Source: Lepiota brunneoincarnata (taxonomy: Eukaryota; Basidiomycota; Agaricomycetes; Agaricales; Agaricaceae). From it: a stretch of 64,000 bases of DNA. Numbering within the stretch: the stretch's first letter is position 1; every line of letters starts with the position of its first letter. The stretch spans positions 248,001 to 312,000 of the forward strand of contig JAEBUN010000031.1 of assembly GCA_023014365.1 (NCBI GenBank), in the 5' to 3' direction. Both the position numbers and the translations under genes were made by a program. Shown in pieces: positions 16,843-61,733 of the stretch. A model generated the notes under the pieces. It was given only the letters and a program-made list of their open reading frames with translations, was not told where the DNA came from and searched no databases.

Positions 16843-17086
16843 ACCAAACCAAATCACCCCACCAGAAGAAAGAATTGAAAGCCCCCATTTCAGACGCCTT
16901 CTATACGACATCTTCTACCCAGGACAACCCCCATCCCCAGAAACCGCCATCATACTCGATCTTCACAGAACTCCCACTCCTACCTTCTCCCCCGTCATTC
17001 CCCCCAGACCAGACTCCACTGACCCACCACAGATCGACTACTATGAACCAAACTACCTAGCCGAATACCCGGAAGAAGGAAACTAA
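15818..17086 (+). CDS. Extra ORF Y of B1, proline-rich, overlaps ORF X
   Basis: 422-codon frame, +1 relative to ORF X and overlapping it for 1025 bp, then extending 244 bp alone. The product is strongly Pro/Ser/Thr-rich with a short non-repetitive segment (LNWNTLQFQNTTDNSG, MYDRLRLSLLRTIRN) and an acidic C-terminus (DYYEPNYLAEYPEEGN). I recognise no domain. The plus strand is poor in T and G here, which lowers stop frequency, so openness alone is weak evidence. In favour are the length, far beyond other shadow frames in this element, and an open frame in the same relative phase in element C. Confidence 0.4.
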   Translation: MQASNILHFKQLPFRPRLPTPPLTPSPQHTPPPGTRPPTPTTPQNQQPPQPPPLDTIQLEYDHMDQITLLTEICTRLPPTEPLRLNWNTLQFQNTTDNSGTIIPTMYDRLRLSLLRTIRNEPGQNHSSDFSAQDRASCPRCRRTYPNEMRYIPRSPPPQPSPPLPRRPLPQSSPLSPAREESPPVSEIPSDFSPPPRTPPTPSPVTTSRFGTPPTPFTHEPTPEPPTDQSASNADTQDIGPWIAPNSLASDASNMPQGITHTTASSTDAPIALSSNHAINKPNAQVERPDTPPIPEIRQPVPRPFPQLTIDTSISPTTITTRNATTTWPNQISQENHAVPSEPNQITPPEERIESPHFRRLLYDIFYPGQPPSPETAIILDLHRTPTPTFSPVIPPRPDSTDPPQIDYYEPNYLAEYPEEGN

Positions 17087-22314: not shown

Positions 22315-23642
22315 TGTTAGAGCCAGTGTGGATCGGGACCGAAGCGGAGGGTCAGGGTGGTATCCTTGATATAAGGTAACCAGGGGATGGGGCAAAGTCA
22401 GTACATAGACTTCAGAACCGAGGCGGAGTACTTCGGGCAGGGGGTTGGACTTGCAGCCTCAGCTTATGTGCTGTGCCCTCCTACTATCCTAGTCCGTATT
22501 TCAGGAAGTTGGAGCCAAAGCGGAGCGAGGCAGAAGAGAGGAGAGGATAGGGAACAGGGAGCTGGTCTGCTGCTTGATTCGATTATCAGACTGAGGAGTA
22601 CAAGCCAAGTACCTATGGTATATATACTACTGGCCTTACGAACTATGACTTGTACTAACTATGTGTGGAGCAAAGCGGAGACCGATCTAGTTACAAACGG
22701 ATTATGAATGGATGTCATATCCATGCCAACTCAGAGTCTAATCATTTAAACTTCGGCTTCTCGACTCCACATGTGTTCCACACAACAACCCTCTGCCCTC
22801 CGACTCGGCCCTGACCTGCTCCGACCGCAACCCACTGCCCCAATCATGCGACCACCTCCACACGTGCCATGGTCACCTGACCCTTGGTGTCTCATACCCC
22901 CGTCTCCATTTCCCATCCGTAGTCAAGATACGTTATTAGTCTCCATACCTGTACCTGTTTCCATTCCATTCGTAATCCATTCGTAATCCGTTTGTAACTA
23001 GATCAGTCTCCGCTTCACTCCACACGTAGTCAGTATGAGTCATAGTTCGTAAGGCCGTTAGTATATATACCGTAGGTACTTGGCTTGTACTCTGCAGTCT
23101 GATAATCGAATCGAGCAGTGGACCAGCTCCCTGTTCTCTATCCTCTCCTCTCTTTCTGCCTCACTCCACTTTGGCCCCAGCTTCCTGAAATACGGACTAG
23201 GACAGTAGGAGGGCACAGCACATACGCTGAGGCCGCAAGTCCAACCCCCCGCCCGACGTACTCCGCCTCGGTTCCAAAGTCTACGTACTGACTTCACCCT
23301 GTCCCCCAGTTACCTTATATCAAGGATACCACCCTGACCCTCCGCTTTGGTCCCGACCCGCACTGGCTCTAACAATGGATTACGAATGGAATGGAAATGG
23401 GTACAGGTATGGAGACTAATAACATATTATGACTATGGATGGGAAATGGAGATGGGGGTATGAGACACTGAGGGTCAGGTGACCATGGCACATGTGGAGG
23501 TGGTTGCGTGATTGGGGCAGTGGGTTGCAGTCGGAGCAGGTCGGGGCCGAGTCGGAGGGCAGAGGGTTGTTGTGTGGAACACACGTGGAGTTGAGAAGCC
23601 GAAGTTTAAATAATTAGACTCTGAGTTGGCATGGATATGACA
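22315..23642 (-). repeat. 3' LTR of A2, split by a solo LTR
   Basis: 22315-22712 plus 23380-23642, with an inverted family A LTR and its duplicated target between them. The inner end GATATGACA is followed by the polypurine tract complement GTGCCCCCCC. Confidence 0.9.
22713..23374 (+). repeat. Solo LTR of family A inside an A LTR, TSD ATGGA
   Basis: 662-bp LTR in inverse orientation (TGTCATATCC...GGCTCTAACA), flanked by ATGGA at 22708-22712 and 23375-23379. A clean solo LTR nested in a related LTR. Confidence 0.95.
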
Positions 23643-23673
23643 GTGCCCCCCCTTTAGGGCTGAGCCTCGAGGC

Positions 23674-24628
23674 TGGAGGAGGAGGAGCAATGAGAGGAGG
23701 AGGAGCAGCAGCGGATGATAGCGCTGTGCCAGCGACAAGCGGAGGAGCAGGCAAGAGAGCATATGGCAGAAGGTATCAGGTGGCAACAAGATGAGACTGC
23801 CAAGGCAGAGCATCGGGTGATTTGGGCCCAACTCGTCGCAACAACTACAGGGGCCTTGTCAAGCCGTCTGTTGGAAGAACCGATGCAGGTAGATATGGAG
23901 GAGTTGGATTCTGAATACACGGATAGGGACGAGGCGAGAGATGAGGAGGAGGAGGAGGCCTCCAGGGATTCAGGGGATAAGGGCAAGGGGAAGGCAAAGG
24001 CGAGGGTGGCCCCGCAATGGGGCCATGCGAACATATTCGGGGGCGAGAACCCCTGCTGGAGGTGTCAGCGAGACGAGGTCCTGTGTGAGGTCGCCAGTGG
24101 GTAAGTCATTTTGAGGGTTTCCAGGCTACATACTGATAGTTTTTTTAGTAACACCAGGAGTTGCCGTCAGTGCAGCAAAATGAAGAAACGGTGCAGGGGT
24201 CAAGAGGAGATGGAGCCGAGTGGGGCTGGGGGGATGTCGGGCCAACAATTTGAAGGTGAGTGAGGAGTCCTGTATCATGATGTATGCTAATCAGTGGGTT
24301 TGTAGAATTGAAAAGGTTCATCACTGAAAAGCACCAGGAGACCATCAAGAGGGTCAACATTCTGGAGGTGTGGCTTGCACAGGCCATCACTCGATTGGGG
24401 GAGAGGGTGGACAAGGTCAAGCTGACGGCTGGCCACTATGAACAGTTGCAGCGTTGGGAGGCGCAGGTGGATGGTAACTGGTCAAGTAGGGGTATTACGG
24501 AGACAGAGGAGACGGAGGAGTTGGAGGAGTCGGAGAGCATCGGAGGCATTTTGGAAGAGGAGGTGCGAGGTATGATGGAGGATGTGGCAGTGCTGCCCTG
24601 CACCTCTGGGAACGATATGGATAGGTAG
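23674..24628 (+). pseudogene. Antisense Zn2Cys6-like gene of A2, 5' deleted
   Basis: The promoter and the first part of exon 1 are deleted just after the polypurine tract, and a TGA follows. From 23715 the frame is open: helical Glu/Arg region, acidic stretch, basic GKGKAKARVAP, CWRCQRDEVLC, donor GTAAGT at 24101. Exon 2 (24149-24255) carries the second trio C-R-Q-C-x6-C; intron 2 is 24256-24305; exon 3 runs to the stop at 24628. All six cysteines and both introns are kept. Confidence 0.75.
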
Positions 24629-24686
24629 TTGTACTTATCCAATAAATTTTTTTGTTTCTTGGTGTGGTGGGTGGTCAGCGGAAAAT

Positions 24687-27600
24687 TCAGAGTGAATGGA
24701 GGGGACCAGGCTTAGAGGGGTAAGAGGAATGGAAAGCCTCTACTAGATTGGTAGCATGTTCAAGTTTGGTAGCTGGTAACCACGAGGATTCTTCTTCAGT
24801 ATCTTCATAACCTAACCAGATGACTTTATAGAGGAGCTTGCATGCGCAGCACCGATCAATCTTTGAGTCGACGATACGGGCAATCTCATATTCTGGTTCA
24901 CCGTCAATAGAAACTGGCGCGGGTGGCGGGTCCGATTGGGTGGGTATGGTGTTAGGCGTAGCCAGTTCAAGCATGGAAACATGGAAGATGGGGTGTACTC
25001 CACACATGGAGTCAGGAAGTTGGAGTGTAAAGGAATGGGTACCTGCTTGTGCAATGATCTCATAAGGCCCAAGGAACTTTTCAGAGAGTTTTTTGGAAGG
25101 ACAGGTGGCACTGGGGTTTAGACCTCATACAGGTGACACAAGACTTACAGAAATCCTTGATGAAGGTGCGGACACTAGGCCAGGTGTATTTGCACTGGAT
25201 GAGTTCCAGCGTTTTGTTCTGACCGAAGTGTCCGGCTAGGACATGATCATGCTTGTACTGGAGGACCCAAAGTCGGAGATTGTCAGTGTCAGGGACGTAG
25301 ATTCTGTCGTCTAGTAGAAGGAAACCTTTATCATTAACTGACCAATGGCCTTCTGGGCTCGCAAGGTGGGTGGAAGCGGTCGGATCCGCTGGTAGGGCGG
25401 CGAGGATATTGCGGTGTAGCTGGTCGAGATCCATGACTACAGCTGTGCGAAGGGAAGGGGCGTAAAGAGTGGTGGCACGGACGGAGGCCGTGAGCCGTTC
25501 ATGAGTGAACACAGGCTGGAAGTTGTGTGGGTTGACTGATGCATAGTTGCTATTCCCCCCTTTAGGGTAGATGTCCCATCGTCTAGTTAGGGCGTCAGGC
25601 TTGGTGCCGAGGCAGCTGGGTTGGAACTGGATGACGAGGTGGAATTGGGACAGGAACTCGGACCAACAAGCTTGGCGGCGAGTAAGGATTTTGGTGGTGC
25701 AGAAGTATTCAAGGTTTTTGTGGTTGGTGACCACATCAATAGTAAGAGGGGCACCCTCAAGATAGTGCCGCCAGATACGAAAAGCCTTGAATATTGCCAG
25801 GAGTTCCTTGCCATGGGTGTCATAATTAAGTTTGGCCATGTTAAAGGTGCGGGAATGGAATGCAATGGAGTGGACCTCCCCATCATCAGTGATGATAGAG
25901 AGGATAGCCGCAAGGGCGTAGTCAGAGGTGTTGGTCTTGACAATGATCTGAGCATCAGGGGCCCAAGGAGTGAGGATGGGGGCGGAGATGAATGCTTCCT
26001 TCAGGGAGTTAAAGGCTTCGCGACATTTGTCAGTGAAATTCCATTTCACGTCTTTGTGGGTGAGGCGAGTGAGTGGAACGACGATGTTGGAGTAACCATG
26101 AATGAAATGATGATAGAAATTGGCAAAACCTAAGAAGGATTGGATATCCTTGACTTTCTTAGGTTCCGGCCACTCCTGGATGGTCTTGACCTTAGATTGG
26201 TCCATTCGGAGACCATCGGGGGAAAGAATGTAGCCGAGATATTCCACTGTGTCAGAGTGGAACTGGCATTTGTTGGGGTGGGCATATAGGCCGTGTTGTC
26301 AGAGCCGCTTGAGGACCTCCTTGACTTGGTCATGATGGATACTGTGATTGTTGGAGTATATCAGAATGTCATCAAGGTAGATAGTAATGCAGACATCGAG
26401 CATGTCCTTGAATATATTGTTCATGAACCGCTGGAAGGTGGTGGGGGCGTTGGTGAGGCCGAAAGGCATAACCATCCATTCGAAGGAGCTGTACCGGGTC
26501 CAAAAGGTGGTCTTCCATTTGTCACTGTCAGCAACGTGGACTAGATGGTAAGCGTGATGGAGGTCAATTTTGGTATATACATGAGCTTTGTGAGGGGAGT
26601 CTAAGAGGTCAGAGATGAGCAGAAGGGGGTAGTGATCCTTCTTGGTAATACGGTTGAGACCTCTAAAATCAACACATAAATGGAGGGAGCCGTCCTTTTT
26701 CTTGACAAAGAGGACCGGGGCTCCATGAGGAGAAGTGGAGGGGTGAATGAAGCCAATAGATAAATGTTTGTCAATGAAATCACATAGAGCTCCAAGCTCT
26801 GATTGTGAAAGGGAGTAAATGGTACTGACCGGAGGCTGACCGCTGTCCTCTAGGTTAATCTGGAGGTCATAAGGGCAGTGTGGAGCAAGTGTGTCAGCAC
26901 GCGATTTACTGAAAACATTGGTGAACTTATGGTATTCCTCGGGGATGGATGAGAGGTCAGCCGGGTTGTCAGAGACAGAAGAGGACGCGGCTGATGCAGA
27001 AGCAGCGGAGAGGTTGATTCGGAATTGTTGGGAGCCAGGGAGCTTGGCAGCGTGGATAAAGGCAGGAGCGTTTATCAGGGAAATATGCAGTTTTGCAATG
27101 GGGACAGGTTGGGATGAGGTCCCGGACAGGGGTGGTGAACCTAGGTCAGGAGTGTCAGGGGCGGCCATAAGTGGGGCCAATGCAGGTGCAATGCAGGTAG
27201 AGATGGAAGCAGGATTCTTGAGTAGGGATGGCCAGAAAGTGATACTGCCCAAAGCCCAGTCAATCAACAGATTGTAGCAGGTGAGCCAGTTGTGTCCTAA
27301 GACCACAGAACAGGAAGAGTTGAGCTGGGTGACATAAGTGTCCAAAATGATAGATTCACCAGAGGGGAAAGATATAGGCAGTTGCGCAAGCTCCGTAATG
27401 TAGGCATTTGAGGTTCCGTCAAATAACCGAAGTTCAATAGCCAGGATGGACAAGGTTGGAATACTATGAGAACGAACAAAAGATGAGTCCACAAAACAGT
27501 GAGTAGAACCACTATCAACAAGAGCTTTGAAAGGAGAAAGAGAAGAGAAATCAGAACTAACTACATTGTCTGTTGTAGAAAGCGGAGAGTATGGAAGCAG

Positions 27601-29203: not shown

Positions 29204-29864
29204 TGTTAGAGCCGGTGCAGATCAGGACCAAAGTGGAGGGTCAGGGTGGTATCCTTGATATAAGGTAACTGGGGGATGGGGCAAAGTCAGTATGTAGACT
29301 TCGGAACTGAGGTGGAGTACTTCGGGCGGGGGGTTGGACTTGCGGCCTCAGCTTATGTGCTGTGCCCTCCTACTGTCCTAGTCCGTATTTCAGGAAGTTG
29401 AAGCTGAAGCGGAGCGAGGCAGAAGAGAGGAGAGGATAGGGAACAGGGAGCTGGTCCGCTGCTTGATTTGATTATCAGACTGAGGAGTACAAGCCAAGTA
29501 CCTACAGTATATATACTACTGGCCTTACAAACTATGACTCATACTGACTACATGCGGAGCGAAGCAGAGACCGGTCTAGTTACAAACGGATTACAAATGG
29601 ATTATGAATGGAATGGAAACAGGTACAGGTATGGAGACTAATAACATATCTTGACTATGGATGGGAAATGGAGACGGGGGTATGAGACACCAAGGGTCAG
29701 GTGACCACAGCACGTGTGGAGGTGGTCGCATGATTGGGGCAGTGGGTTGTGGTCAGAGCAGGTCAGGGCCAAGTTGGAGGGCAGAGGATTGTTGTGTGGA
29801 ACACACGTGGAGTCGAGAAGCCGAAGTTTAAATGATTAGACTCTGAGTTGGCATGGATATGACA
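29204..29864 (-). repeat. 5' LTR of A2
   Basis: 661 bp with intact ends; followed by the TGCCC duplication and the continuation of A3. Confidence 0.93.
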
Positions 29865-29995
29865 TGCCCCCCCTTTAGGGCTGAGCCTTGAGGCCCTAGG
29901 TGGTCTAGCCTGGGGCCCATCAGAAAACTCTGTTGGGGTATAAAAACAGGTGAACTGGTTCAAGTTGGGAGAGCACAATTTAACCCCATACTCCC

Positions 29996-30875
29996 ATGAG
30001 CAGACAACCATCCCAACAACTGACCACCACAGAATGCAAGGTGCAACTGCTGAGGGAGAAGGCTGAGCAAGAGGAGCGGGAGTGGCTGGAAATTGAGAGG
30101 TTGGAGGAGGAGGAGTGGCAGCAGCTGATAGCACTGCATCAGCAACAAGTGGAGGAGCGGGCAAGGGAGCACCTGGCAGAAGAGATCAGGTGGCAACAAG
30201 ACAAGGAGGAAGAGGAGGAGGAAGAGGACTCTGGGGACACAGGGGGTAAGGGAAAAGCAAGGGCAAGGGCAGCCCCACGACAGGGCCATGCAAACATATT
30301 CAGGGGTGAGAACCCCTGCTGGAGGTGTGAGTGAGATGGGGTCCAGTGTGAGGTTGCTGGTGGGTGAGTTGTTTTTGAAAGTTTTCTGGGATACATACTG
30401 ATAGGGTTTTAGTAACACCAGGAGTTGCCATCAGTGTAGTAAAACAAAGAAACAATGCAGAAGCCAAGAGGAGATGGAGCCAAGCAGGACTGGTGGGTTG
30501 TTGGGCCAACAGTTTGAGGGTAAGTAAGGAGTCCTGTATTGTGATGTATGCTAATCAGTGGGTGTTGTAGAGTTGAAATGGCTCATCGAGGAAAAGCACC
30601 AGGAGACTGTCAAGAAGGTCAACATCCTGGAGGTACGACTCGAGTGGTCCATCGCTTGATTGGGGGAGAAGATGGACAAGGTGGAGCAGGTGGTGGGCCA
30701 TTATGAGCAACTGCGGCGTTGGGAGGTGCAGGTGGATTGTAATTGGTTGAGTGGAAATATTAGGGAGATGGAGGGTTTGGAGGAGAGCATCAGGGCTGCC
30801 TCAGAGGAGGAGGTGCAGGGCTTAATGGAAGATGATGCTGCACAGTTGCCTGGCCCCTCTGGAGACAATAAGTAA
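29996..30875 (+). pseudogene. Antisense Zn2Cys6-like gene of A3, broken
   Basis: TATA box at 29939-29946, ATG at 29996 in CCCATGAGC. Exon 1 has an internal deletion of about 160 bp between the helical region and the acidic stretch, and a stop inside the first cysteine trio (CWRC-E-stop-DGVQC). The second trio reads CHQCSKTKKQC in exon 2, and exon 3 continues to 30875. Intron 1 has a GTGAGT donor. Confidence 0.72.
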
Positions 30876-30951
30876 TTTGGTAGTAATTTGTGTAGTTTTT
30901 TTTTTTATAAATCTTGTTGTTTCTTGGTGTGATGGGTGATCAGTGGAAAAC

Positions 30952-33900
30952 TCAGAGTGAATGGAGGGGGCCAGGCTTAGCAGGGTAAGAGGAATGGAAA
31001 GCCTCTACTAGATCTATGGCATGTTCAAGTTTGGTAGCCGGTAACCATGAAGACTCTTCTTCAGTGTCTTCATAACCTAACCAAATGACTTTGTAGAGGA
31101 GTTTGCATGTGCAATGCTGATCAATCTTTGAGTCAACGATGTGAGCAATCTTGTATTCAGGTTTGCCATCAATAGAAACTGGTGCAGGTGGTGGGTCTGA
31201 TTGGGTGGGTATGGTATTAGGTGTGGCTGGTTCAAGCATAGAAACATGGAAAACTGGGTGTACTCCATGCATGGAGTTGGGGAGTTGGAGGGTGAAGGAG
31301 CAGGTACCTGCTTGGGCACCAAGGAACTTTTTGGAGAGTTTTTTGGAGGGATGGGTGGTGCAGAAGAACTGAGCTTTAATGAACACTTTTTGCCCAACCT
31401 TGAAGTCCAGAGCCAGGACACAGTGGGTGTTGGCGGAGGTCTGGTATCGTTGCTGGGCTATTTCCGACTTCAAGGTGGTATGTAGGTCATCAAGATCAAC
31501 TGCAAAATGGTGGGCCCAAGCGGAGGTGAGGTTGCATTCAGGATGAACTGTGATGTTTGGATGGTATCCTTTATTAGCAAAGAATGGGGAGATACTGGTG
31601 GTGGCACTAGGAGCATTGTTGTAAGCAAACTCAGCTAGTGGTAGTAATTTGGACCAATTGTCCTGTTGGTAGTTACAATAGACCTGAAGATATTGTTCCA
31701 GGGTCTGGTTGGTGCGTTCCATCTGTCTGTCACCTTCTGGGTGGTAGCCTGAAGTGAAGTGTAGTTTCATGTCAAGGGCTTGTCCCAATGAGCAGAAGAA
31801 GTGAGAGACAAATTTGGAGCCGCAGTTGGAGGTAACATGTTCAGGTATGCCATGCTTGGAGAAGACATAGAGGACAAATAGGCAGGCAAGGTCGGAGGAG
31901 GTGACAGTATCATAAGTCGGGATGAATAAGGATTGTTTGGTGAGTCTGTCGACTATTACTAGGATGGCATCATAGCTGGAGGAGGCAGGGAGTTTTTCAA
32001 TGAAGTCCATGGAGATTGAATTCCAAGGTCATTTGGGGATGGGGAGTTGCTTGAGGAGACCATAGGGGCGGTGGCGCTGGGGTTTAGACCTCATACAGGT
32101 GACACAAGACTTACAGAAATCCTTGACAAAGGTGTGGACACTAGGCCAGGTGTATTCATGCTGGATGAGTTCCAGTGTTTTATTCTGACTGAAGTGGCCA
32201 GTTAGGACATGATCGTGCTTGTACTGGAGGACCCAAAGTCAGAGATTGTTGGCATCAGGGACATACATAGATTCTGTCATCTAGGAGGAGGAAACCTTTG
32301 TCATTAACTGACCAACAGCCCTCTGGGCTCGCAAGATGGGTGGAGGTGGTCGGATCCACTGGTAGAGTGGCAAGGATATTGCAGTGTAGTTGGTTGAGAT
32401 CCATGACTACAGCTGCATGAAGGGAAGGGGTGTAAAGAGTGGTGGTGCGGATGAAGGCCACAAGCTGTTCATGAGTGAACACAGGCCAGAAGTTGTGCGG
32501 GTTGACTGATGCATAGTCGCTGTTCCCCCCTTTAGGGTAGATATCCCATTGTCTAGTTAGGGTGTCAGGCTTGGTGCCAAGGTGGCCAGGTCAGAACCAG
32601 ATGACGAGGTGGAATTGGGACAGGAACTTGGACCAACAAGCTTGGCAGTAAGTAAGGATTTTGGTGGTGCAGAAGTATTCAAGGTTTTTGTGGTCGGTGA
32701 CTACATCAATAGTAAGAGGGGCACCCTCAAGATAGTGCCACCAGATATGAAAAGCCTCAAATATTGCCAGGAGTTCCTTGTCGTGGGTGTCATAATTAAG
32801 TTTGGCTGTGTTAAAGGTGTGGGAATGGAATGCAATGGGGTGAACCTCCCCATCATCAGTGATGATAGAGAGAATAGCCGCAAGGGCATAGTCGGAAGTG
32901 TTGGTCTTGACAATGATCTGAGCATTGGGGGCCCAAGGAGTGAGGACGGGGGCAGATATGAATGCTTCCTTCAGGCAACTGAAGGCTTTGCAGCATTCGT
33001 CAGTGAAATTCCATTTCACATCTTTGCAGGTGAGGTGGGTGAGCGGAACAACAATGTCAGAATAACTGTGAATGAAGCGATGATAGAAATTAGTGAAACC
33101 TAAGAAGGACTGGATGTCCTTGACTTTCTTAGGCTCAGGCCACTCCTGGATGGTCTTGACCTTAGATTGGTCCATTCAGAGACCATCAGGGGAAAGAATG
33201 TAGCCAAGATATTCCACTGTATCAGAGTGGAATTGGCATTTGTCAGGATGGGCATATAGACCATGTTGTCAGAGCCACTTGAGGACCTCCTTGACTTGGT
33301 CATGATGGATACTATGATTGTCAGAGTATATCAGAATGTCGTCAAGATAGATAGTAACGCAGACATCGAGCATGTCTTTGAATATATTGTTCATGAACTG
33401 CTGGAAGGTGGCAGGGGTGTTGGTGAGGCTGAAAGGCATAACCATCCATTCGAAGGAGCCATAGCAGGTCCAAAAGGCAGTCTTCCATTCATCACTGTCA
33501 GCAATGCAGACTAGATGGTATGCATGATGGAGGTCAATTTTGGTATATATGCAGGCTTTGCGAGGGGAGTCTAAGAGGTTGGAGATAAGCAGAAGGGGGT
33601 AACAGTCCTTCTTGGTAATATGGTTGAGACCTCTAAAATCAACACATAAACAGAGGGAGCCATCCTTTTTCTTTATGAAGAGGACTGGGGCTCCATGAGG
33701 AGAAGTGGAGGGGCAAATGAAGCCAATAGATAAATGTTCATCAATGAAATCACGTAGAGCTCCAAGCTCTGATTGTGAAAGGGAGTAAATGGTACCAACC
33801 GGAGGTTGACCACCATCCTCAAGGTTAATCTGGAGGTTGTAAGGGTGGTGTGGAGCGAGTGTGTCAACACACAATTTACTGAAAACATCAGCAAACTTGT

Positions 33901-34547: not shown

Positions 34548-35864
34548 TGTTAGAGCCGGTGCGGGTCGGGACCGAAGCGGAGGGTCGGGGTGGTATCCTT
34601 GGTATAAGGTAACCGGGGGACAGGGCGAAGTCAGTACGTAGACTTCGGGACCGAGGCGGAGTACGTCGGGCGGGGGGTTGGACTTGCGGCCTCAGCTTAT
34701 GTGCTGTGCCCTTGTTAGAGCCGGTGCGGGTCGGGACCGAAGCGGAGGGTCGGGGTGGTATCCTTGGTATAAGGTAACCGGGGGACGGGACGACATCAGT
34801 ACGTAGACGGCGGGACCGAGGCGGAGTACTTCGGGCGGAGAGTGGACTTGCGGCCTCAGCTTATGTGCTGTGCCCTCCTACTGTCCGAGTCCGTATTTCA
34901 GGAAGTCGGGGCCGAAGCGGAGCGAGGCAGAGAGAGAGGGGGATAGGGAACAGGGGACTGGTCCGCTGCTCGATTCGATTATCAGACTGAGGAGTACAAG
35001 CCAAGTACCTACGGTATATATACTACTGGCCTTACGAACTATGACTCGTACTGACTACGTGCGGAGTGAAGCGGAGACCCATATGGTTACAAACGGATTA
35101 CAAACGAAATGGAGACCGGTACGGGTATGGAGACTGGTAACGTATCTTGACTACGGACGGGAAATGGAGACGGGGAAATAGAGACAGCAAGGTTCAGGTG
35201 ACCACGGCACGTGTGGAGGTGGTCGCGTGATCAGGGCAGTGGGTTGCGGTCGGAGTGAGTCGGGGCCGAGTCGGAGGGCAGAGGGTTGTTGTGTGGAACA
35301 CACGTGGAGTCGAGAAGCCGAAGTTTAAGTGATTAGACTTATAGTTGGCATGGATATGACAGCCCTCCTACTGTCCTAGTCCGTATTTCAGGAAGTCGGA
35401 GCCGAAGCGGAGCGAGGCAGAAGAGAGGAGAGGATATGGAACAGGGAGCTGGTCCGCTGCTCGATTCGATTATCAGACTGAGGAGTACAAGCCAAGTGCC
35501 TACGGTATATATACTACTAGCTCGACGAATGATGACTCGTACTGACTACGTGCGGAGTGAAGCGGAGACCCATATGGTTACAAGCGGATTACGAATAATT
35601 TCGAATGGAATGGAGACCGGTACGGGTATGGAGACTGGTAACGTATTCTGATTACGGACAGAGAATGGAGAACTGGACAATGGGAGCACCGAGGGTCAGG
35701 TGGTCGTGGCACGTGTAGAGGTAGGTCGCGTGATCGGGGCGAAGGGTTGCGGTCGGAGCCAGTCGGGGCCGAGTCGGAGGGCATAGGGTTGTCGTGTGGA
35801 GCACACGTGGAGTCGAGGAGCCGAAGCCTAATGGTTAAGCTCTAGGTTTGGTGTGGATATGACA
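34548..35864 (-). repeat. 3' LTR of A4, split by a solo LTR
   Basis: 34548-34712 and 35367-35864, together 663 bp, matching the 5' LTR. Confidence 0.93.
34713..35361 (-). repeat. Solo LTR of family A in the A4 3' LTR, TSD GCCCT
   Basis: 649 bp, same orientation as its host LTR, flanked by GCCCT at 34708-34712 and 35362-35366. It belongs to the LTR subtype seen at 59796-60446 rather than that of A4. Confidence 0.95.
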
Positions 35865-35881
35865 GTGCCCCCCCTTTAGGG
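35865..35881 (-). promoter_or_regulatory. Polypurine tract of A4
   Basis: Read on the minus strand, CCCTAAAGGGGGGGCAC lies directly against the 3' LTR. This is the expected primer for plus-strand DNA synthesis and confirms that gag-pol orientation is minus. Conserved beside every 3' LTR of the family. Confidence 0.85.
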
Positions 35882-35939
35882 CCGAGCCTCGAGGCCCAAG
35901 GCGGTCTAGACCGGGGCCCACCGGAAAATTCCACGAGGG

Positions 35940-35947
35940 TATAAAAA
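35940..35947 (+). promoter_or_regulatory. TATA box of the antisense gene in A4
   Basis: TATAAAAA on the plus strand, 59 bp before the ATG at 35999 and outside the LTR. The same box with GTGAACTG or CGAACTG just after it occurs in A1 (inverse), A3 (29939) and A5 (60532), so the gene carries its own promoter. Confidence 0.65.
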
Positions 35948-35998
35948 AAAGGTGAACTGATTCGAATTTGAGAGGACACAACTTGACCTCCTACCCCC

Positions 35999-37084
35999 AT
36001 GAGCAGACAACCATCCTGTCAACCGACCGCTACGGAGCGCAAGGCGCGATTACTGAGAGAGAAGGCGGAGCAAGAGGAACGAGAGCGGCTCGAAATCGAG
36101 AGGCTAGAAGAAGAGGAACGGCGAGAGGAGGAGGAGCGGCGGCTGGCAATAGAACGCCAAGAGGAGGAGCGACGGCGGCTCATAGAGCTGCGCCAGCGAC
36201 AAGCGGAAGAGCGCACGAAGGAGCGATATGCGGAGGAGATCAGGAGGCAGCAAGAGGAAACCGCCGAGGCAGAGCGTTGGGCGATTCGGGCCCGACTCGT
36301 TGCGACGACCACAGGGGCCTCGTCGAGCCGTCTGTCGGAAGACCCGATGCAAGTAGATACGGAGGAGTCGGATTCCGAATATACGGATAGGGATGAGGCG
36401 AGGGACAAGGAGGAAGAGGGGGAGGAGGACTCCGGGGATTCAGGGGGTAAGGGTAAGGGGAAGGCAAAGGCGAGGGCGGCCCCGCGACGGGGCCATGCGC
36501 ACGTATTCGGGGGCGAGAATCCCTGCTGGAGGTGCCAGCGAGACGGGGCCCCATGTGAGGTGGCCGGCGGGTAAGTCATTTTGGAGGATTTCCGGACTAC
36601 ATACTGATAGTTTCTTAGTAACACCAGGAGTTGCCGTCGGTGCAGCAAAATGAAAAAACGGTGCGGGGGTCAAGAGGAGACGGAGCCGAGCGGGGCCGGT
36701 GGTTTGTCGGGCCAGCAATTCGAAGGTGAGTAAGGAATCCTGTATTATGATGGATGCCAATTGATGGACCTTGTAGAGTTGAAACGGCTCATTGAAGAAA
36801 GGCACCAGGAGACCGTCAAGAAAATCTACACCCTGGAGGTGCGAATTGAGCGGTCCATCGCTCGGTTGGGGGAAAAGGTCGACAAGATGGGGTCGCTTGC
36901 TGGCCGCTACAAGCAACTACGGCGTTGGGAGGCTCAGGTGGACGGAAATTGGTCGAGTGGAAATTTTTCGGAGACGGAGGGTTCGGAGGGGAGTGTCGGG
37001 CCCGCTTCGGAGGAGGAGGTGCAGGATTTGATGGAAGAAGTGAATGGGTCGCCCGGGCTCTCTGGAGACGACACCGATAGGTAG
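35999..37084 (+). CDS. Antisense Zn2Cys6-like gene of A4, three exons, intact
   Basis: Accessory gene lying between pol and the 3' LTR on the strand opposite gag-pol. Exons 35999-36570, 36619-36725 and 36777-37084; introns of 48 bp (GTAAGT...TTCTTAG) and 51 bp (GTGAGT...TTGTAG). Spliced length is 987 nt, 328 residues. Domains in order: Arg/Glu-rich helical region (about residues 10-95, probably coiled coil), acidic stretch, basic GKGKGKAKARAAPRRG, then C-x2-C-x6-C (CWRCQRDGAPC) joined across intron 1 to C-x2-C-x6-C (CRRCSKMKKRC) with nine residues between. That is the spacing of fungal Zn2Cys6 DNA-binding clusters. A second helical region (LKRLIEERHQETVKK) and an acidic tail follow. It is convergent with pol, stops 69 bp apart. 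A nuclear DNA-binding regulator is my inference; no search was possible. Confidence 0.8.
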
Positions 37085-37153
37085 TTGTACGGGGTTGTTT
37101 TTTTGGTTTGTTTAATACATGGTTGTTTCTTGGTGCGATGTGTGGTCAGTAAC

Positions 37154-40100
37154 TCAAAGTGAGTGAAGAGGACCAGGCTTTGCAGGGTAAGAGGAATGAA
37201 AAGCCTCTACGAGATCTATAGCATGTTCAAGCTCGGTGGCTGGCAACCACGAGGACTCTTCTTCAGTGTCTTCATAACCTAACCAGATGACTTTATAGAG
37301 GAGCTTGCACGCGCGGCGCCGATCGATCTTAGAGTCGACGATGCGGGCAATCTCATATTCTGGTTCACCGTCAATGGAAACCGGCGCGGGCGGCGGATCC
37401 GATCGGGCGGGTATGGTGTTAGGTGTGGCTGGTTCAAGCATGGAAACATGGAAGACTGGGTGTACTCCATGCATGGAGTCGGGAAGTCGGAGTGTAAGGG
37501 AGTGAGTACCTGCTTGTGCAATGATCTCATAAGGCCCAAGGTACTTTTCGGAGAGTTTTTTGGAGGGACGGGTGGTGCGGAAGAATTGGGCTTTCACGAA
37601 TACCTTTTGTCCAACCTTGAAGTCCGGGGCGGGGAGTCGGCGGGCGTCGGCGGAGGTCTGATAACGTTGCTGGGCTAGCGCTATTTCGGACTTCAGGGTG
37701 GTATGTAGGTCGTCGAGATCAACAGCAAAATGGCGGGCCCAGGCGGAGGCAAGATCGCGTTCAGGATGAACTGTGATGTTCGGATGGTATCCTTTATTAG
37801 CGAAGAATGGGGAGATACCGGTGGTGGCACTAGGAGCGTTGTTGTAAGCAAACTCAGCTAGGGGTAGTAATTCGGACCAATTGTCCTGTTGGTAGTTACA
37901 ATAGACCCGAAGGTATTGTTCGAGGGTCTGGTTGGTGCGTTCTGTTTGTCCGTCGCCTTCTGGATGGTAGCCCGAGGTGAAATGTAGCTTCATGTCAAGG
38001 GCTTGTCCCAATGAGCGGAAGAAGTGGGAGACGAATTCGGAGCCGCGGTCGGAGGTAACATGTTCGGGTACGCTGTGCTTGGAGAAGACGTGGAGGACGA
38101 ATAGGCGGGCGAGGTCGGAGGAGGTGATGGTATCATAAGTTGGGATGAAGAGGGATTGCTTGGTGAGTCTGTCAACGATTACCAGGATGGCGTCATAGCC
38201 GGAGGAGGCGGGAAGTTTTTCGATGAAGTCCATGGAGATTGAATTCCAAGGGCGTTCGGGGATGGGGAGTTGCTTAAGGAGACCGTAGGGGCGATGGCGC
38301 TGGGGTTTAGACCTCATACAGGTGACACAAGACTTACAGAAATCCTTCACGAAGGTGCGGACGCTAGGCCAGGTGTATTCGCGCCGGATGAGTTCCAGCG
38401 TTTTATTCTGACCAAAGTGGCCGGCTAGGACGTGATCATGCTTGTACTGGAGGACCCGAAGTCGGAGATTGTCGGTGTCAGGGACGTAGATTCTGTCGTC
38501 TAAGAGGAGGAAACCTTTATCATTAACTGACCAACGGCCTTCTGGGCTGGCAAGATGGGCGGAAGCGGTCGGATCCGCTGGTAGGGCGGCGAGAATATCG
38601 CGGTGTAGCTGATCGAGGTCCATGACTACAGCTGCGCGAAGGGAAGGGGCGTAAAGAGTGGTGGCACGGACGGAGGCCGCGAGCTGTTCGTGAGTGAACA
38701 CAGGCCGGAAGTTGTGCGGGTTGACTGATGCATAGTCGCTATTCCCCCCTTTAGGGTAGACGTCCCATCGTCTAGTTAGGGCGTCAGGCTTGGTGCCGAG
38801 GCGGCCGGGTCGGAAACGGATGACGAGGTGGAATTGGGATAGGAACTCGGACCAACAAGCTTGGCGGCGAGTCAGGATCTTGGTGGTGCAGAAGTATTCG
38901 AGGTTCTTGTGGTCAGTGACCACATCAATAGCAAGGGGGGCACCTTCGAGGTAGTGCCGCCAGATGCGAAAGGCTTCGAATATCGCCAGGAGTTCCTTGT
39001 CGTGAGTGTCATAGTTGAGTTCGGCCGTGTTAAAGGTGCGGGAATGGAATGCAACGGGATGGACCTCCCCATCGTCGGTGACGATAGAGAGGATTGCCAC
39101 AAGGGCGTAGTCGGAGGCGTCGGTCTCGACAATGATCTGAGCGTCGGGGACCCAAGGAGTGAGGACGGGGGCGGAGATAAATGCTTCCTTCAGGGAGTTA
39201 AAGGCCTCGCGACAATCATCAGTAAAATTCCACTTCACGTCTTTGCGGGTGAGGCGAGTGAGCGGAACGACGATGTCGGAGTATCCGTGAATGAAGCGAC
39301 GGTAGAAATTGGCGAAGCCTAGGAAGGACTGGATGTCCTTGACTTTCTTAGGCTCAGGCCACTCCTGGATGGTCTTGACCTTAGATTGGTCCATTCGGAG
39401 GCCGTCGGGGGAGAGAATGTAGCCGAGATATTCCACTGTGTCAGAGTGGAACTGGCATTTGTCAGGGCGGGCGTATAGACCGTGTTGGCGGAGCCGCTTG
39501 AGGACCTCCTTGACTTGGTCACGATGGATACTATGGTTGTCGGAGTATATCAGAATGTCGTCAAGGTAGATAGTAACGCAGACATCGAGCATGTCCTTGA
39601 ATATATCGTTCATGAACCGCTGGAAGGTGGCGGGGGCATTGGTGAGGCCGAAAGGCATAACCATCCACTCGAAGGAGCCGTAGCGGGTCCGAAAGGCGGT
39701 CTTCCATTCGTCGCCGTCAGCAACGCGGACAAGATGGTAGGCGTGGCGGAGGTCGATCTTGGTATATACGCGAGCTTTGCGAGGGGAGTCTAAGAGGTCG
39801 GAGATGAGCGGAAGGGGATAGCGGTCCTTCTTGGTGATACGGTTGAGACCTCTAAAATCAACGCATAAGCGGAGGGAGCCGTCCTTTTTCTTGACGAAGA
39901 GGACCGGGGCTCCATGAGGGGAAGTGGAGGGGCGGATGAAACCAATAGATAAATGTTCGTCAATAAAATCACGTAGAGCTCCAAGCTCCGATTGTGAAAG
40001 GGAGTAAATGGTACCGACCGGAGGCTGACCGCCATCCTCTAGGTTAATCTGGAGGTCGTAAGGGCGGTGTGGAGCAAGTGTGTCAGCACGCGATTTACTG

Positions 40101-40762
40101 AAAACGTCAGCGAACTCGTGGTATTCCTCGGGGATAGACGAGAGGTCAGGCGGTTCCTCGGAGACAGAAGAGGACGCGGCCGATGCGGAGGCGGCGGAAA
40201 GATTTATTCGGAATTGTTGGGAGCCAGGGAGCTTGGCAGCGCGGATAAAGGCAGGAGCGTTTATCAAGGAGATGTGCGGTTTCGCAAGGGGGACAGATTG
40301 GGACGAGGTCCCGGACAGGGGTGGTGAACCTAGGTCAGGAGAGTCAGGGGCGGCCATAGGCGGAGCCGATGCGGGTGCGACGCAGGTAGAGACGGAAGCA
40401 GGATTCTCGAGTAGGGATGGCTGGAAAGTAATACTGCCCAAAGCCCAGTCAATCAACGGATTGTAGCGGGTGAGCCAGTTGTGTCCTAAGACCACAGAAC
40501 AGGAAGAGTCGAGCCGGGTGACATAAGTGTCCAAAATGATAGATTCACCGGAGGGGAAAGATACAGGCAGTTGCGCAAGCTCCGTAATGTAGGCATTTGA
40601 GGTCCCATCAAATAACTGAAGTTCAATAGCCGGAATGGACGAGGTTGGAATACTATGAGAACGAACAAAAGATGAGTCCACAAAACAGTGAGTAGAACCA
40701 CTATCAACAAGGGCTTTGAAAGGAGAAAGAGAAGAGAAATCAGAACTAACTACATTGTCCAT
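37154..40762 (-). CDS. pol: Pol of A4, intact
   Basis: 1202 residues from the first ATG. The frame is open about 66 codons further upstream to the gag stop (40954), in the -1 frame, so the native product is probably a Gag-Pol fusion. Protease DSGS at 20-23; reverse transcriptase with YLDD at 399-402; RNase H with D548, E590 and D617; integrase zinc region ending C812-x2-C815; DDE core D845, D905, E941; chromodomain at about 1130-1190 (YKVIWLGYEDTEEESSW). No stop or missing catalytic residue seen. Ends in GPLHSL, 69 bp from the stop of the convergent antisense gene. Confidence 0.95.
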   Translation of the reverse strand: MDNVVSSDFSSLSPFKALVDSGSTHCFVDSSFVRSHSIPTSSIPAIELQLFDGTSNAYITELAQLPVSFPSGESIILDTYVTRLDSSCSVVLGHNWLTRYNPLIDWALGSITFQPSLLENPASVSTCVAPASAPPMAAPDSPDLGSPPLSGTSSQSVPLAKPHISLINAPAFIRAAKLPGSQQFRINLSAASASAASSSVSEEPPDLSSIPEEYHEFADVFSKSRADTLAPHRPYDLQINLEDGGQPPVGTIYSLSQSELGALRDFIDEHLSIGFIRPSTSPHGAPVLFVKKKDGSLRLCVDFRGLNRITKKDRYPLPLISDLLDSPRKARVYTKIDLRHAYHLVRVADGDEWKTAFRTRYGSFEWMVMPFGLTNAPATFQRFMNDIFKDMLDVCVTIYLDDILIYSDNHSIHRDQVKEVLKRLRQHGLYARPDKCQFHSDTVEYLGYILSPDGLRMDQSKVKTIQEWPEPKKVKDIQSFLGFANFYRRFIHGYSDIVVPLTRLTRKDVKWNFTDDCREAFNSLKEAFISAPVLTPWVPDAQIIVETDASDYALVAILSIVTDDGEVHPVAFHSRTFNTAELNYDTHDKELLAIFEAFRIWRHYLEGAPLAIDVVTDHKNLEYFCTTKILTRRQACWSEFLSQFHLVIRFRPGRLGTKPDALTRRWDVYPKGGNSDYASVNPHNFRPVFTHEQLAASVRATTLYAPSLRAAVVMDLDQLHRDILAALPADPTASAHLASPEGRWSVNDKGFLLLDDRIYVPDTDNLRLRVLQYKHDHVLAGHFGQNKTLELIRREYTWPSVRTFVKDFCKSCVTCMRSKPQRHRPYGLLKQLPIPERPWNSISMDFIEKLPASSGYDAILVIVDRLTKQSLFIPTYDTITSSDLARLFVLHVFSKHSVPEHVTSDRGSEFVSHFFRSLGQALDMKLHFTSGYHPEGDGQTERTNQTLEQYLRVYCNYQQDNWSELLPLAEFAYNNAPSATTGISPFFANKGYHPNITVHPERDLASAWARHFAVDLDDLHTTLKSEIALAQQRYQTSADARRLPAPDFKVGQKVFVKAQFFRTTRPSKKLSEKYLGPYEIIAQAGTHSLTLRLPDSMHGVHPVFHVSMLEPATPNTIPARSDPPPAPVSIDGEPEYEIARIVDSKIDRRRACKLLYKVIWLGYEDTEEESSWLPATELEHAIDLVEAFHSSYPAKPGPLHSL

Positions 40763-40953
40763 TGTAGAAATCGGGTCCGAAGCGGAGAGTACGGAAGCGG
40801 AGACAGAAGATACAGAAGTAATTAAAGGAGAAGTTAATGTGATATGAAAGGAGTTCGGGTCGGAAAGAGCGGACGCATTGAGACGGAAACTCTCTGGAGC
40901 ACAGCAGAGTTCAATGCGATCCTCAGTCTGTGCAGAGGCCTGAGGACCGCCGA

Positions 40954-42360
40954 CTATTTTTCCGAGCTTGGGAGAGCCGGCGCGTCTGTCTCGGGGAGCT
41001 GAGCCTGTTGGCCTTTAGCCTTGGCATCAGGGAATTTTTTCTTGTCGCAGTTAGCAGCCCTGTGATTGGGATCTGCGCAGACAAGGCAGAGGTTATTGTC
41101 GAAACGTCGTTGACGTTCCTCGGGGGTTAATTTACCGTCCTTACCAAGTTTACTAGTAAGGTCGGATTTGGGCGGGGCCGATTTCTGACCGGCGGACGGG
41201 TTGGGCGGATTGCCCTTGAAGATGTTATTACTGGGGGTGCTGCCTTTGTTGTTACTGTTGGCAGGCTTGGCGGCAGGTTGATGGTTTGTCGCGGTGGAAG
41301 GGGATGGGTTGCCTCCAGGTTTCCTAGAGGTGGTCGGGTCCGAAGCGGCTTTGGCGCGGGCCTTCTCGCGTTGGCGTTCCCAGTAGCGAGCATCGATCTT
41401 CATCGCTGCTGCTCGTATTTTGATGAAGGTGTCGGGCTTGCCATCGGGCCAATTGGACAGAATGTCCTGGATGCGGTCGGGGAGGCCTTTGTAGTAGCGG
41501 TGACAAAATACCTCATCACCCCAGCGGAGTTGGCCGGCCAGACGGAGAAAGTCGACGTTGTAGACGGCGATCTTTTCGTCATAGCGCATTCGGAGGGAGT
41601 CAAGCTGCTCAGCAGCTTCTCCAGTCGGATCCGCGGGACCGAAATTGGTCTGCAGTTCCAGGGTGAACTGATCCCAGTCCTCGATCCAATCGTGCATTAT
41701 TCCGTGGTTGTCGGCCTCGTCGAGGCCGATTTCGAAGTGTTGCTGGGCCACGCCGGTAAGGTACGTCAACGCGAAGTTGACCTTGGTGGCGGGGATAGCG
41801 AACTGGGCCGGGTTAGTACGGAAGTAGAGTCGACATTGGAAGAGGAAAGGTTTGAGTTTGGTGGGGTCGGAACCTGTAAAGATGTCAGGTTCGCGAGCCT
41901 TGGTACGGGGGGTTCGGGGAGGCTGTGGGGGTTGAGAGTTCCCACGGCCGTCCATTTGATCGGCTATTCGTTGGAAAACTCGGAGCAGGAGTTGGTCATG
42001 GTCATTTTGGGTGTTGCCAGGCGGAATGTTGTTATTTTTGTCGTTGTTGTCTGACGGTTCGTCGTCGTCCGGGGGTCCGTCCCCATTGTCAGGGTGGTCG
42101 TCGGGATCACCAGGGTCGCTGGGATCGGGATTTGGGTCGGGGCCACCGTCGGGGCCGTCGGGAGTCTGGAATAGTGAAGGTTGAATATCTTCACTGAACC
42201 GGTCTGGAGTTGAGGGCACGATGGATTGTTGGCGAGGGGGAGAAACCCTCGGGGGGTCGGGTTGCAGTTCCTTGGAAGGAGGTTGTCGAGTGATGCGTTT
42301 GCTATGGCGAGCGGCTGGAGTTACCAGAGTGCGAGTACGGGTAACTGTTCGAGAGACCAT
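40954..42360 (-). CDS. gag: Gag of A4, intact
   Basis: 468 residues; start ATG at 42360-42358, 53 nt inside the 5' LTR. The N-terminus is rich in Pro, Asp and Asn (DPNPDPSDPGDPDDHPDNGD). A retrotransposon gag domain lies in the middle (FALTYLTGVAQQHFEIGLD, WDQFTLELQTNFGPADP, LAGQLRWGDEVFCHRYYKG), and one C-x2-C-x4-H-x4-C knuckle (CLVCADPNHRAANC) lies near the C-terminus. The last codons are GAA AAA TAG, giving a run of five A against the stop; pol is open in the -1 frame from this point, which suggests ribosomal frameshifting. Confidence 0.93.
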   Translation of the reverse strand: MVSRTVTRTRTLVTPAARHSKRITRQPPSKELQPDPPRVSPPRQQSIVPSTPDRFSEDIQPSLFQTPDGPDGGPDPNPDPSDPGDPDDHPDNGDGPPDDDEPSDNNDKNNNIPPGNTQNDHDQLLLRVFQRIADQMDGRGNSQPPQPPRTPRTKAREPDIFTGSDPTKLKPFLFQCRLYFRTNPAQFAIPATKVNFALTYLTGVAQQHFEIGLDEADNHGIMHDWIEDWDQFTLELQTNFGPADPTGEAAEQLDSLRMRYDEKIAVYNVDFLRLAGQLRWGDEVFCHRYYKGLPDRIQDILSNWPDGKPDTFIKIRAAAMKIDARYWERQREKARAKAASDPTTSRKPGGNPSPSTATNHQPAAKPANSNNKGSTPSNNIFKGNPPNPSAGQKSAPPKSDLTSKLGKDGKLTPEERQRRFDNNLCLVCADPNHRAANCDKKKFPDAKAKGQQAQLPETDAPALPSSEK

Positions 42361-42398
42361 GGTTAGAAAAATTCAGAGTGTGGTGGACAGGAGGAGTT

Positions 42399-42411
42399 TC
42401 AGTCTGATAAT
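42399..42411 (-). promoter_or_regulatory. Self-complementary primer-binding site of A4
   Basis: On the minus strand ATTATCAGACTGA begins two bases after the 5' LTR. It is a perfect 13-nt complement of TCAGTCTGATAAT in the LTR (42681-42693), which starts 32 bp downstream of a TATATATA box (42718-42725), where transcription should begin. No tRNA match was noticed. A2 and A3 have a one-base variant pairing over 11 nt. Confidence 0.65.
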
Positions 42412-42413
42412 AC

Positions 42414-43076
42414 TGTTAGAGCCGGTGCGGGTCGGGACCAAAGCGGAGGGTCGGGGTGGTATCCTTGGTATAAGGTAACCGGGGGACAGGGCGAAGTCAG
42501 TACGTAGACTTCGGGACCGAGGCGGAGTACGTCGGGCGGGGGGTTGGACTTGCGGCCTCAGCTTATGTGCTGTGCCCTCCTACTGTCCTAGTCCGTATTT
42601 CAGGAAGTCGGAGCCGAAGCGGAGCGAGGCAGAAGAGAGGAGAGGATATGGAACAGGGAGCTGGTCCGCTGCTCGATTCGATTATCAGACTGAGGAGTAC
42701 AAGCCAAGTGCCTACGGTATATATACTACTAGCTCGACGAATGATGACTCGTACTGACTACGTGCGGAGTGAAGCGGAGACCCATATGGTTACAAGCAGA
42801 TTACGAATAATTTCGAATGGAATGGAGACCGGTACGGGTATGGAGACTGGTAACGTATTCTGATTACGGACGGAGAATGGAGAACTGGACAATGGGAGCA
42901 CTGAGGGTCAGGTGGTCGTGGCACATGTAGAGGTAGGTCGCGTGATCGGGGCGAAGGGTTGCGGTCGGAGCCAGTCGGGGCCGAGTCGGAGGGCATAGGG
43001 TTGTCGTGTGGAGCACACGTGGAGTCGAGGAGCCGAAGCCTAATGGTTAAGCTCTAGGTTTGGTGTGGATATGACA
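42414..43076 (-). repeat. 5' LTR of A4
   Basis: 663 bp with intact ends, carrying the TATA box and predicted transcription start on the minus strand. Followed by the TATAG duplication. Confidence 0.95.
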
Positions 43077-59795: not shown

Positions 59796-60446
59796 TGTTA
59801 GAGCCGGTGCGGGTTGGGACCGAAGCGGAGGGTCGGGGTGGTATCCTTGGTATAAGGTAACCGGGGGACAGGGCGAAGTCAGTACGTAGACTTCGGGACC
59901 GAGGCGGAGTACGTCGGGCGGGGGGTTGGACTTGCGGCCTCAGCTTATGTGCTGTGCCCTCCTACTGTCCTAGTCCGTATTTCAGGAAGTCGGAGCCGAA
60001 GCGGAGCGAGGCAGAAGAGAGGAGAGGATATGGAACAGGGAGCTGGTCCGCTACTCGATTTGATTATCAGACTCAGGAGTACAAGCCAAGTACTTACGGT
60101 ATATATACTACTGGCCTTATGAACTATGACTCGTACTGACTATGTGCGGAGTGAAGCGGAGACCCATATGGTTACAAACGGATTACAAACGAAATGGAGA
60201 CCGGTACGGGTATGGAGACTGGTAACGTATCTTGACTACGGACGGGAAATGGAGACGGGGAAATAGAGACAGCGAGGTTCAGGTGACCACGGCACGTGTG
60301 GAGGTGGTCGCGTGATCGGGGCAGTGGGTTGCGGTCGGAGTGAGTCGGGGCCGAGTCGGAGGGCAGAGGGTTGTTGTGTGGAACACACGTGGAGTCGAGA
60401 AGCCGAAGTTTAAGTGATTAGACTTATAGTTGGCATGGATATGACA
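59796..60446 (-). repeat. 3' LTR of A5
   Basis: 651 bp, of the same subtype as the solo LTR at 34713-35361. Followed by the polypurine tract complement at 60447-60463. Confidence 0.93.
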
Positions 60447-60578
60447 GTGCCCCCCCTTTAGGGCCAAGCCTCGAGGCCCTAGGCGGTCCAGACCGGGTCC
60501 ATCGGAAGACATCCGCCCGAGTATAAAAACCGGCGAACTGGTTCGGTCCGGAAATACACAACTTGACCTCCTACCACC

Positions 60579-61664: not shown

Positions 61665-61733
61665 TTGTACGGGGTTGTTTTTTGGGTTTGTTTAATACAT
61701 GGTTGTTTCTTGGTGTGATGTGTGGTCAGTAAC

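Follow-up and report, generated by a model that had tools for sequence, protein, structure and literature searches.

A Ty3/gypsy retrotransposon family that is common in the genome of Lepiota brunneoincarnata appears to carry an additional gene, which is located on the strand opposite to gag and pol, is interrupted by two short introns and encodes a protein with a Zn2Cys6-like cysteine motif. The comparisons of copies described here, which covered one genome of 55.6 Mb, support the original prediction of such an antisense, spliced gene that moves as part of a gypsy element. At the level of comparative sequence, these comparisons show the structure of the gene, the need for intron removal to obtain its frame, purifying selection between families, mobility and loss.

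The host element and its surroundings

The window, i.e. the whole stretch of 64,000 nucleotides that was analysed, contains a complete chromovirus of the Ty3/gypsy type on the minus strand (34548..43076), with LTR ends TG...CA and the target duplication CTATA on both sides. This element comprises, all on the minus strand, a 5′ LTR of 663 nt (42414..43076), gag (40954..42360; 468 aa; Retrotrans_gag PF03732, E 3e-9) with the CCHC-like knuckle CLVCADPNHRAANC, and pol (37154..40762; 1202 aa), in which Pfam matches identify protease (PR), reverse transcriptase (RT), RNase H, integrase (IN), SH3 and chromodomain. The 3′ LTR is split into a first part (35362..35864, −) and a remaining part (34548..34712, −) by a nested solo LTR of a related family (34713..35361, −; 87%), which has its own 5-bp target duplication AGGGC. 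Both parts match the 5′ LTR closely, at 99.2% and 99.4% identity, respectively, and the insertion of the element is therefore recent. A polypurine tract read from the sequence (35868..35880, −) adjoins the 3′ LTR and was present in 26 of 26 aligned flanks, although these flanks had been located by that same tract. The element thus displays gag, the order PR-RT-RNase H-IN, a chromodomain, TG...CA LTRs, a 5-bp target duplication and a polypurine tract, as is characteristic of chromoviruses. Named relatives of its pol end among the 120 matches listed include Leucocoprinus, Trametes and Pisolithus, i.e. agaricomycetes, and the Leucocoprinus match among them has 84% identity at 86% query coverage.

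A second chromovirus was observed in the window, with gag at 10659, pol extending to 15715 and repeats at 9313 and 17121. Two sense frames on the plus strand, 15718-16842 (374 aa) and 15818-17086 (422 aa), lie between its pol and its presumed 3′ LTR, and share about 1 kb, which they read in different phases. By eye, the 374-aa frame contains knuckle-like cysteine motifs and the 422-aa frame is proline-rich; both are without a Pfam match. At least 39 more full-length copies, at 94-97%, were found when 40 of 407 candidates were scored, and both frames were open in four of the six copies read. In five comparisons of the overlap, just 4-6 of the 33-50 differences fell at one codon position, and the two frames are a candidate for an overlapping gene pair. 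The window also holds a fragment of a tnp2-family DNA transposase (53918-54493, +; PF02992, E 3.6e-11).

A spliced gene between pol and the 3′ LTR

The stretch 35865-37153 begins at the inner border of the 3′ LTR and runs up to the base that precedes the pol stop. This interval of the minus-strand element, with pol on one side and the 3′ LTR on the other, holds a plus-strand gene of 328 residues, the stop of which ends at 37084. Its TATA box (35940..35947, +) is positioned 59 nt upstream of the ATG at 35999. Exon 1 (35999..36570, +) encodes an N-terminal E/R-rich coil, an acidic stretch, a basic stretch and the first cysteine triplet, and is followed by intron 1 (36571..36618, +; 48 nt), which reads GTAAGT...TTAG and includes the branch-like CTGAT. 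Exon 2 (36619..36725, +) contributes the second cysteine triplet and a linker. Intron 2 (36726..36776, +; 51 nt) reads GTGAGT...GTAG, and exon 3 (36777..37084, +) encodes a predicted 59-residue helix followed by an acidic tail, ending with the stop TAG. The exon borders 36570/36619 and 36725/36777 reproduce the gene as it had been predicted, with a TATA box, an ATG, two GT-AG introns and 328 residues. Equally, the spliced translation bears out that the signature C-x2-C-x6-C-x9-C-x2-C-x6-C is formed only once intron 1 is removed.

Altogether, five copies of the gene are present in the window. The claim that the six cysteines are kept in all of them is correct as regards codons but not readable genes: three of the five can be read through the motif without interruption, and a single one, at 35999-37084, from its ATG through to its stop. 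Exon 1 of the copy at 60440-61740 is interrupted by a stop, the copies at 29860-30960 and 7460-8760 have several stops each, and the copy at 23640-24700 lacks both the TATA box and the start.

Conservation of splice sites, frame and promoter

To judge conservation among close relatives, 40 family-A copies including that of the window, 97-99% identical over the stretch, were compared with the exon borders fixed from the window copy. GT-AG ends were found in 40/40 copies for intron 1 and in 39/40 for intron 2. Length changes relative to the window copy, scored in 39 copies, affected the 5′ flank in 26 copies, the 3′ flank in 11 and exon 3 in five, two of the latter by multiples of three; exon 1, exon 2 and both introns were free of such changes (0/39). 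The same stop was reached by 25 of the 40 copies and by two more via in-frame deletions, the cysteine motif was retained in 39, and TATAAAA was present upstream of ATGAGCAG (ATG) in 38.

A broader comparison made use of 40 further loci, fetched from 150 listed of 334 matches and modelled together with the five window copies. The splice sites in these 45 models were picked by a donor-favouring score, so that their GT-AG ends are partly given by construction, a limit from which the fixed-border comparison is free. Open cores with the motif were obtained in 30 of the 45 models; L053 and L080 were dropped for a doubtful intron 2 model, leaving 28 cores from several families for the dN/dS and intron tables. 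In these 28 cores intron 1 measured 47-51 nt and intron 2 48-52 nt. The lengths span all three residue classes, yet the spliced frame is open. The intron interiors differed between copies at 30-35% of positions, and GT at the start and AG at the end were found throughout; the value of 0.124 for the last two bases of intron 1 stems from gapped columns, the AG end being present in 28/28. A branch-like site CTGAY was detected in the first intron of all 30 open cores, and a looser form of it in the second intron of 29. Among the further loci, 34 of 39 had TATAAAA no more than 100 nt from the ATG, at 56-62 nt before it.

The reasoning that antisense introns survive retrotransposition is sound: being spliced from the opposite strand only, they would leave the genomic RNA unaffected. 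Intronless copies were sought in the genome with two junction patterns that cover part of the families, and no match was obtained with up to two mismatches.

Selection on the coding frame

Pooled over the 28 open cores, dN/dS amounted to 0.25 in the coding frame, in line with the selection expected of a gene, versus 1.07, 1.40, 1.10, 0.38 and 1.60 in the other five frames. Stops were absent from the 4577 codons of the coding frame, for which the cores had been chosen open, versus 32-192 stops in each of the others. Conceivably, the frame could be no gene, and owe its existence to the codon usage of another coding frame that lies opposite to it. GAG and CGG codons abound in the region, which also contains a minus-strand frame of 209 codons (36019-36648), and one minus-strand frame has a dN/dS below 1, namely the value of 0.38. 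By phase arithmetic, the latter is the minus frame that shares its third positions with the gene. This frame, however, contained 90 stops in 4445 codons as compared to none on the plus strand of the preselected open cores, and the splice sites and frame-keeping intron lengths all belong to the plus strand. Within the reach of sequence evidence, the frame and strand controls thereby refute both a chance open frame and an origin from codon bias, and the probability that we would still assign to the latter is negligible. From the conservation of the splice sites, the frame-keeping intron lengths and the dN/dS values we conclude that the plus-strand frame was selected as a gene, and we regard it as almost certain that it is a real spliced, protein-coding one.

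The same results bear on the idea that the antisense RNA itself is what matters, with convergent transcripts giving rise to double-stranded RNA and silencing, and the protein being secondary. Indeed, the genomic RNA must cross the whole antisense gene before it reaches the 3′ LTR, in the 30 open cores a distance of 58-90 nt separates the stops of pol and the antisense gene, and the idea has been raised in a plant review as well. Nevertheless, the low dN/dS, the lack of stops and the intact splice sites show selection on the protein, which makes a primary role of the RNA quite improbable.

When dN/dS was determined by part in 17 full copies, it was 0.10 in the cysteine region, 0.13 in the N-terminal coil, 0.23 in the second coil, 0.29 in the acidic/basic stretch and 0.45 in the tail. 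This indicates that the cysteine motif is the most constrained part of the product. The end of pol had a dN/dS of 0.08 (20 of 30 copies), compared to 0.25 for the antisense gene, and this weaker constraint is as would be expected of an accessory function.

The predicted bias across codon positions was strong between families, where pairwise differences numbered 8797, 6287 and 15105 at positions 1, 2 and 3, but weak within family A, where the 27 intact copies displayed 42, 46 and 55 variants. Among the family-A variants common to at least three copies no bias was left (8, 9 and 3). In this family, N/S was 0.72-0.76 of the neutral expectation and the variants shared by at least three intact copies were 17 nonsynonymous to 3 synonymous, both of which speak against strong current constraint.

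The product and its cysteine motif

The product consists of the E/R-rich coil, the acidic stretch, the basic stretch GKGKGKAKARAAPRRG, the two cysteine triplets, the linker, the 59-residue predicted helix and the acidic tail, the coils having been read by eye. In the position after the cluster that a coiled-coil occupies in Zn2Cys6 factors, structure prediction for exon 3 alone, with three sequences, returned a single helix over residues 2-60 with block pLDDT values of 92, 97, 96, 93, 89 and 74; pLDDT was 89-97 over the first 50 residues and pTM 0.38.

Zn2Cys6 clusters are defined by the spacing C-x2-C-x6-C-x5-12-C-x2-C-x6-8-C, with which the x9 loop of the window gene complies. This spacing upheld the designation as Zn2Cys6-like, and the PF00172 profile did not reach its cutoff as a single stretch in native order. 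PF00172 was the sole Pfam match of the whole product up to E 10, but its score of 14.5 bits fell short of the cutoff of 21. Native-order cysteine pieces scored 21.6 bits (window) and 13.1 and 17.9 bits (two other families); the match of each was split into two stretches, its first triplet aligning with the profile's second half. When the halves were swapped, all six pieces gave one continuous match (profile 1/2-31/32) at 18.1-26.3 bits; the cutoff was reached by two of them (26.3 and 21.4), the others scoring 18.1-20.8. For the window motif, swapping gained continuity and not score (20.8 versus 21.6 bits). Three of three host Zn2Cys6 domains were the mirror image of this, with one stretch natively and two when swapped. 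A half-classifier from eight host domains, a small training set, separated the element's halves poorly, and a tandem cysteine piece aligned gap-free to PUT3 (E 0.013) across a junction that had been artificially constructed. These matches suggest that the cluster may be a Zn2Cys6 domain with permuted halves; its Zn2Cys6 identity would amount to a resemblance, below the Pfam cutoff in native order.

An ordinary host Zn2Cys6 gene was considered and rejected: of the 25 PF00172 matches at E≤0.001, none was at a site of the element gene among the matches listed. In the protein database, residues 155-290 of the product had no relative at E≤0.001 among 364 candidates, and an alignment of eight product sequences had none at 0.01 among 7989 candidates. 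As a control, the pol end was searched in this database, where 2048 of the 7992 sequences scored were related to it, which shows that fungal elements are represented. The negative outcome for the product weighs little, since spliced genes in metagenome contigs were probably called as separate exons, most of them under the length filter. In viral contigs, relatives were found neither of the product nor of the pol end.

Linkage to pol, loss and mosaic history

To count the partners of pol, the best 120 of 150 pol matches were compared with 146 of 150 zinc-motif matches. A convergent antisense gene adjoins 105 of these 120 pol 3′ ends, at 112-176 nt from the matched piece, and 56 of the 61 among the 120 whose pol frame has 1270 codons or more. 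The five long-pol exceptions, which were the ones examined of the 15 pol ends without a partner, have lost the cysteine region and kept parts of both ends of the stretch. Three of them (L098, L099 and L100) have one deletion of the gene core in common, which joins the first 19 codons to the tail and leaves an open fusion frame in two of these copies. The three copies are 99% alike over 1.08 kb, their likeness stops at the expected outer LTR border and their flanks differ, from which it follows that the shortened form has multiplied. The core losses in L097 and L101 are separate from this deletion. The spread of core-less copies implies that the product is not needed in cis, and that it is either dispensable or works in trans.

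RNA is a frequent ligand of basic, zinc-binding motifs. A product that acts on the RNA or the particle of the element, as a chaperone or in export or packaging, rather than on DNA would fit such a motif and the position of the gene beside pol in the large majority of the pol ends counted. Gag, however, already has a CCHC-like knuckle of its own, the antisense protein is encoded outside the polyprotein, and copies without the gene have spread, so that we regard this role as highly improbable.

The window copies at 35865 and 60440 are 68-86% identical, in steps of 100 columns, from 35588 in the LTR to 36684, and 92-100% identical from 36685 onward. This step at 36684/36685 indicates a switch point in exon 2, directly after the cysteine motif. 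Furthermore, synonymous divergence from the window copy was higher in the gene than in pol in 18 of 19 pairs, L056 being the exception; it was 0.21 versus 0.023 in L049 and 0.86 versus 0.29 in L073. Together, these observations indicate that the front part of the gene can move with the adjoining part of the LTR and be exchanged between families. Linkage alone would suffice for such joint travel, and a specificity shared by the protein and the LTR is a possible reading of it.

Possible role of the product

The layout of the product, with acidic and basic stretches, a six-cysteine cluster, a linker and a long predicted helix, is regulator-like, and on the basis of its sequence we consider it reasonably probable that the protein is a DNA-binding regulator of its own element. 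The PF00172 score below the cutoff, the lower conservation of CGG/CCG, the weak selection in family A and the deletion copies, which manage without the gene in cis, count against such a function. As a potential target, the LTR was examined in an alignment of 22 non-redundant pieces and the reference over the first 507 nt. CGG and CCG triplets are the usual targets of Zn2Cys6 proteins. Their conservation in the alignment was lower than that of other G+C triplets (0.809 versus 0.846), which leaves CGG-type targets in the LTR of the element without support. The block 42818-42857 of the 5′ LTR had a conservation of 0.89-0.90 versus a mean of 0.85, and the region downstream from about 42717 had higher values of 0.90-0.98. 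This block, situated some 100 nt upstream of TATATATA in the LTR, carries a repeated CC(A/G)GTCTCCAT and is a candidate for a control site of the LTR.

In the mechanism that we propose, a chromodomain-containing Ty3/gypsy lineage has acquired and kept an antisense gene with two short introns, driven by a TATA promoter of its own that directly adjoins the 3′ LTR on the inner side. The product would be nuclear, oligomerise through its coils and bind DNA by its Zn2Cys6-like cluster, and it would act in trans on the LTRs of the element, most likely by raising or protecting LTR transcription rather than by repressing it. An activator or anti-silencer is preferred in view of the acidic stretches and of how selection would act between copies; this preference remains tentative, falling short of a probable assignment.

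Instead, the product might be an autorepressor that limits copy number, just as HBZ lowers transcription from the 5′ LTR in HTLV-1. The layout is as described for HBZ (PMC10186651), with an antisense, spliced gene for a protein of a DNA-binding type near the 3′ end of the provirus, and core-less copies have spread, as an escape from repression would permit. On the other hand, a shared repressor would be hard to maintain by selection between copies and the acidic stretches would be more activator-like, and we therefore consider autorepression unlikely. Returning to the activator or anti-silencer, the full scenario would be a regulator that arose in fungal chromoviruses independently of those in plants and HTLV, with a permuted Zn2Cys6 cluster, acting in trans on family-specific LTRs, reshuffled between families at a point just behind the cluster, and with deletion copies as parasites of the trans-acting product; taken as a whole, this combination is doubtful.

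If the proposed role is correct, mushroom genomes would offer a testable retrotransposon that encodes its own transcriptional control, and the copies without the gene in the same genome would provide a natural comparison. Such genes would probably be missed, or labelled as host zinc-cluster proteins, by annotation pipelines in which repeats are masked or antisense introns ignored.

Comparison with known systems

As had been stated in the original prediction, antisense frames are known in some plant Ty3/gypsy elements: the main texts of PMC7264820 and PMC11963269 describe them between pol and the 3′ LTR in Retand, Grande (gene23) and RIRE2, and report for gene23 a promoter of its own and a nuclear product. 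The fungal gene resembles these frames in its position, its orientation, its retention in most copies and the proposed nuclear or DNA-binding role; with 105 of the best 120 of 150 pol ends, it has what defines the plant-type aORF-3R, i.e. an antisense location between pol and the 3′ LTR and presence in most copies. It differs in that most Retand clusters are described as having a TRP28 domain (PF04195), whereas the fungal product has no match to PF04195 up to E 10. Moreover, the fungal gene requires two introns, while no word that starts with 'intron' occurs in the main texts of PMC7264820 and PMC11963269. The fungal element is a chromovirus, whereas Retand is a non-chromovirus according to its abstract, and the host kingdom differs too.

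In fungi, the view that no such Zn2Cys6-type gene had been known is in agreement with the open-licence literature, where titles and the beginnings of abstracts revealed no antisense or Zn2Cys6 gene in an LTR element. The legend to Figure 3 of Novikova et al. 2010 does mention additional ORFs in fungal Gypsy elements, including a dUTPase in basidiomycete elements, and the present element is like these in being a fungal gypsy with extra coding capacity. The terms 'antisense', 'zinc' and 'opposite orientation' are absent from the main text of that paper. Taken together, the main texts of PMC3248453, PMC2864245, PMC3411680 and PMC10799480 on fungi are free of the term 'antisense'. Compared with fungal Zn2Cys6 factors of the Gal4/Put3 type (PF00172), the product is alike in the number and spacing of its cysteines and in the linker and long helix that follow them, and unlike in that its basic triplet comes second.

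VANC proteins of Arabidopsis VANDAL transposons have been described as sequence-specific anti-silencing proteins. They are the analogue of the working model preferred here, a transposon-borne, sequence-specific antagonist of silencing, but VANDAL is another kind of transposon than Ty3/gypsy, and VANC differs from the fungal product in the type of protein.

HBZ of HTLV-1 is reported to be encoded by a spliced antisense gene at the 3′ end and to act as a nuclear regulator of 5′-LTR transcription (PMC10186651). The fungal gene is similarly spliced, antisense and at the 3′ end of the element, and no homology is claimed. HBZ is a bZIP protein expressed from the 3′ LTR, whereas the fungal product has no bZIP match but a Zn2Cys6-like motif, and the TATA box of its gene lies inside the element beside the polypurine tract. 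By analogy of position and logic, the fungal gene is thus of the same kind as the antisense genes of plant elements and HTLV; by domain, it is none of them. If this likeness is borne out, genes of this antisense type would have originated next to the 3′ LTR in plant elements, deltaretroviruses and fungal elements, with different domains of a DNA-binding type, and their repeated origin would argue for a common need that is served by a position beside the 3′ LTR.
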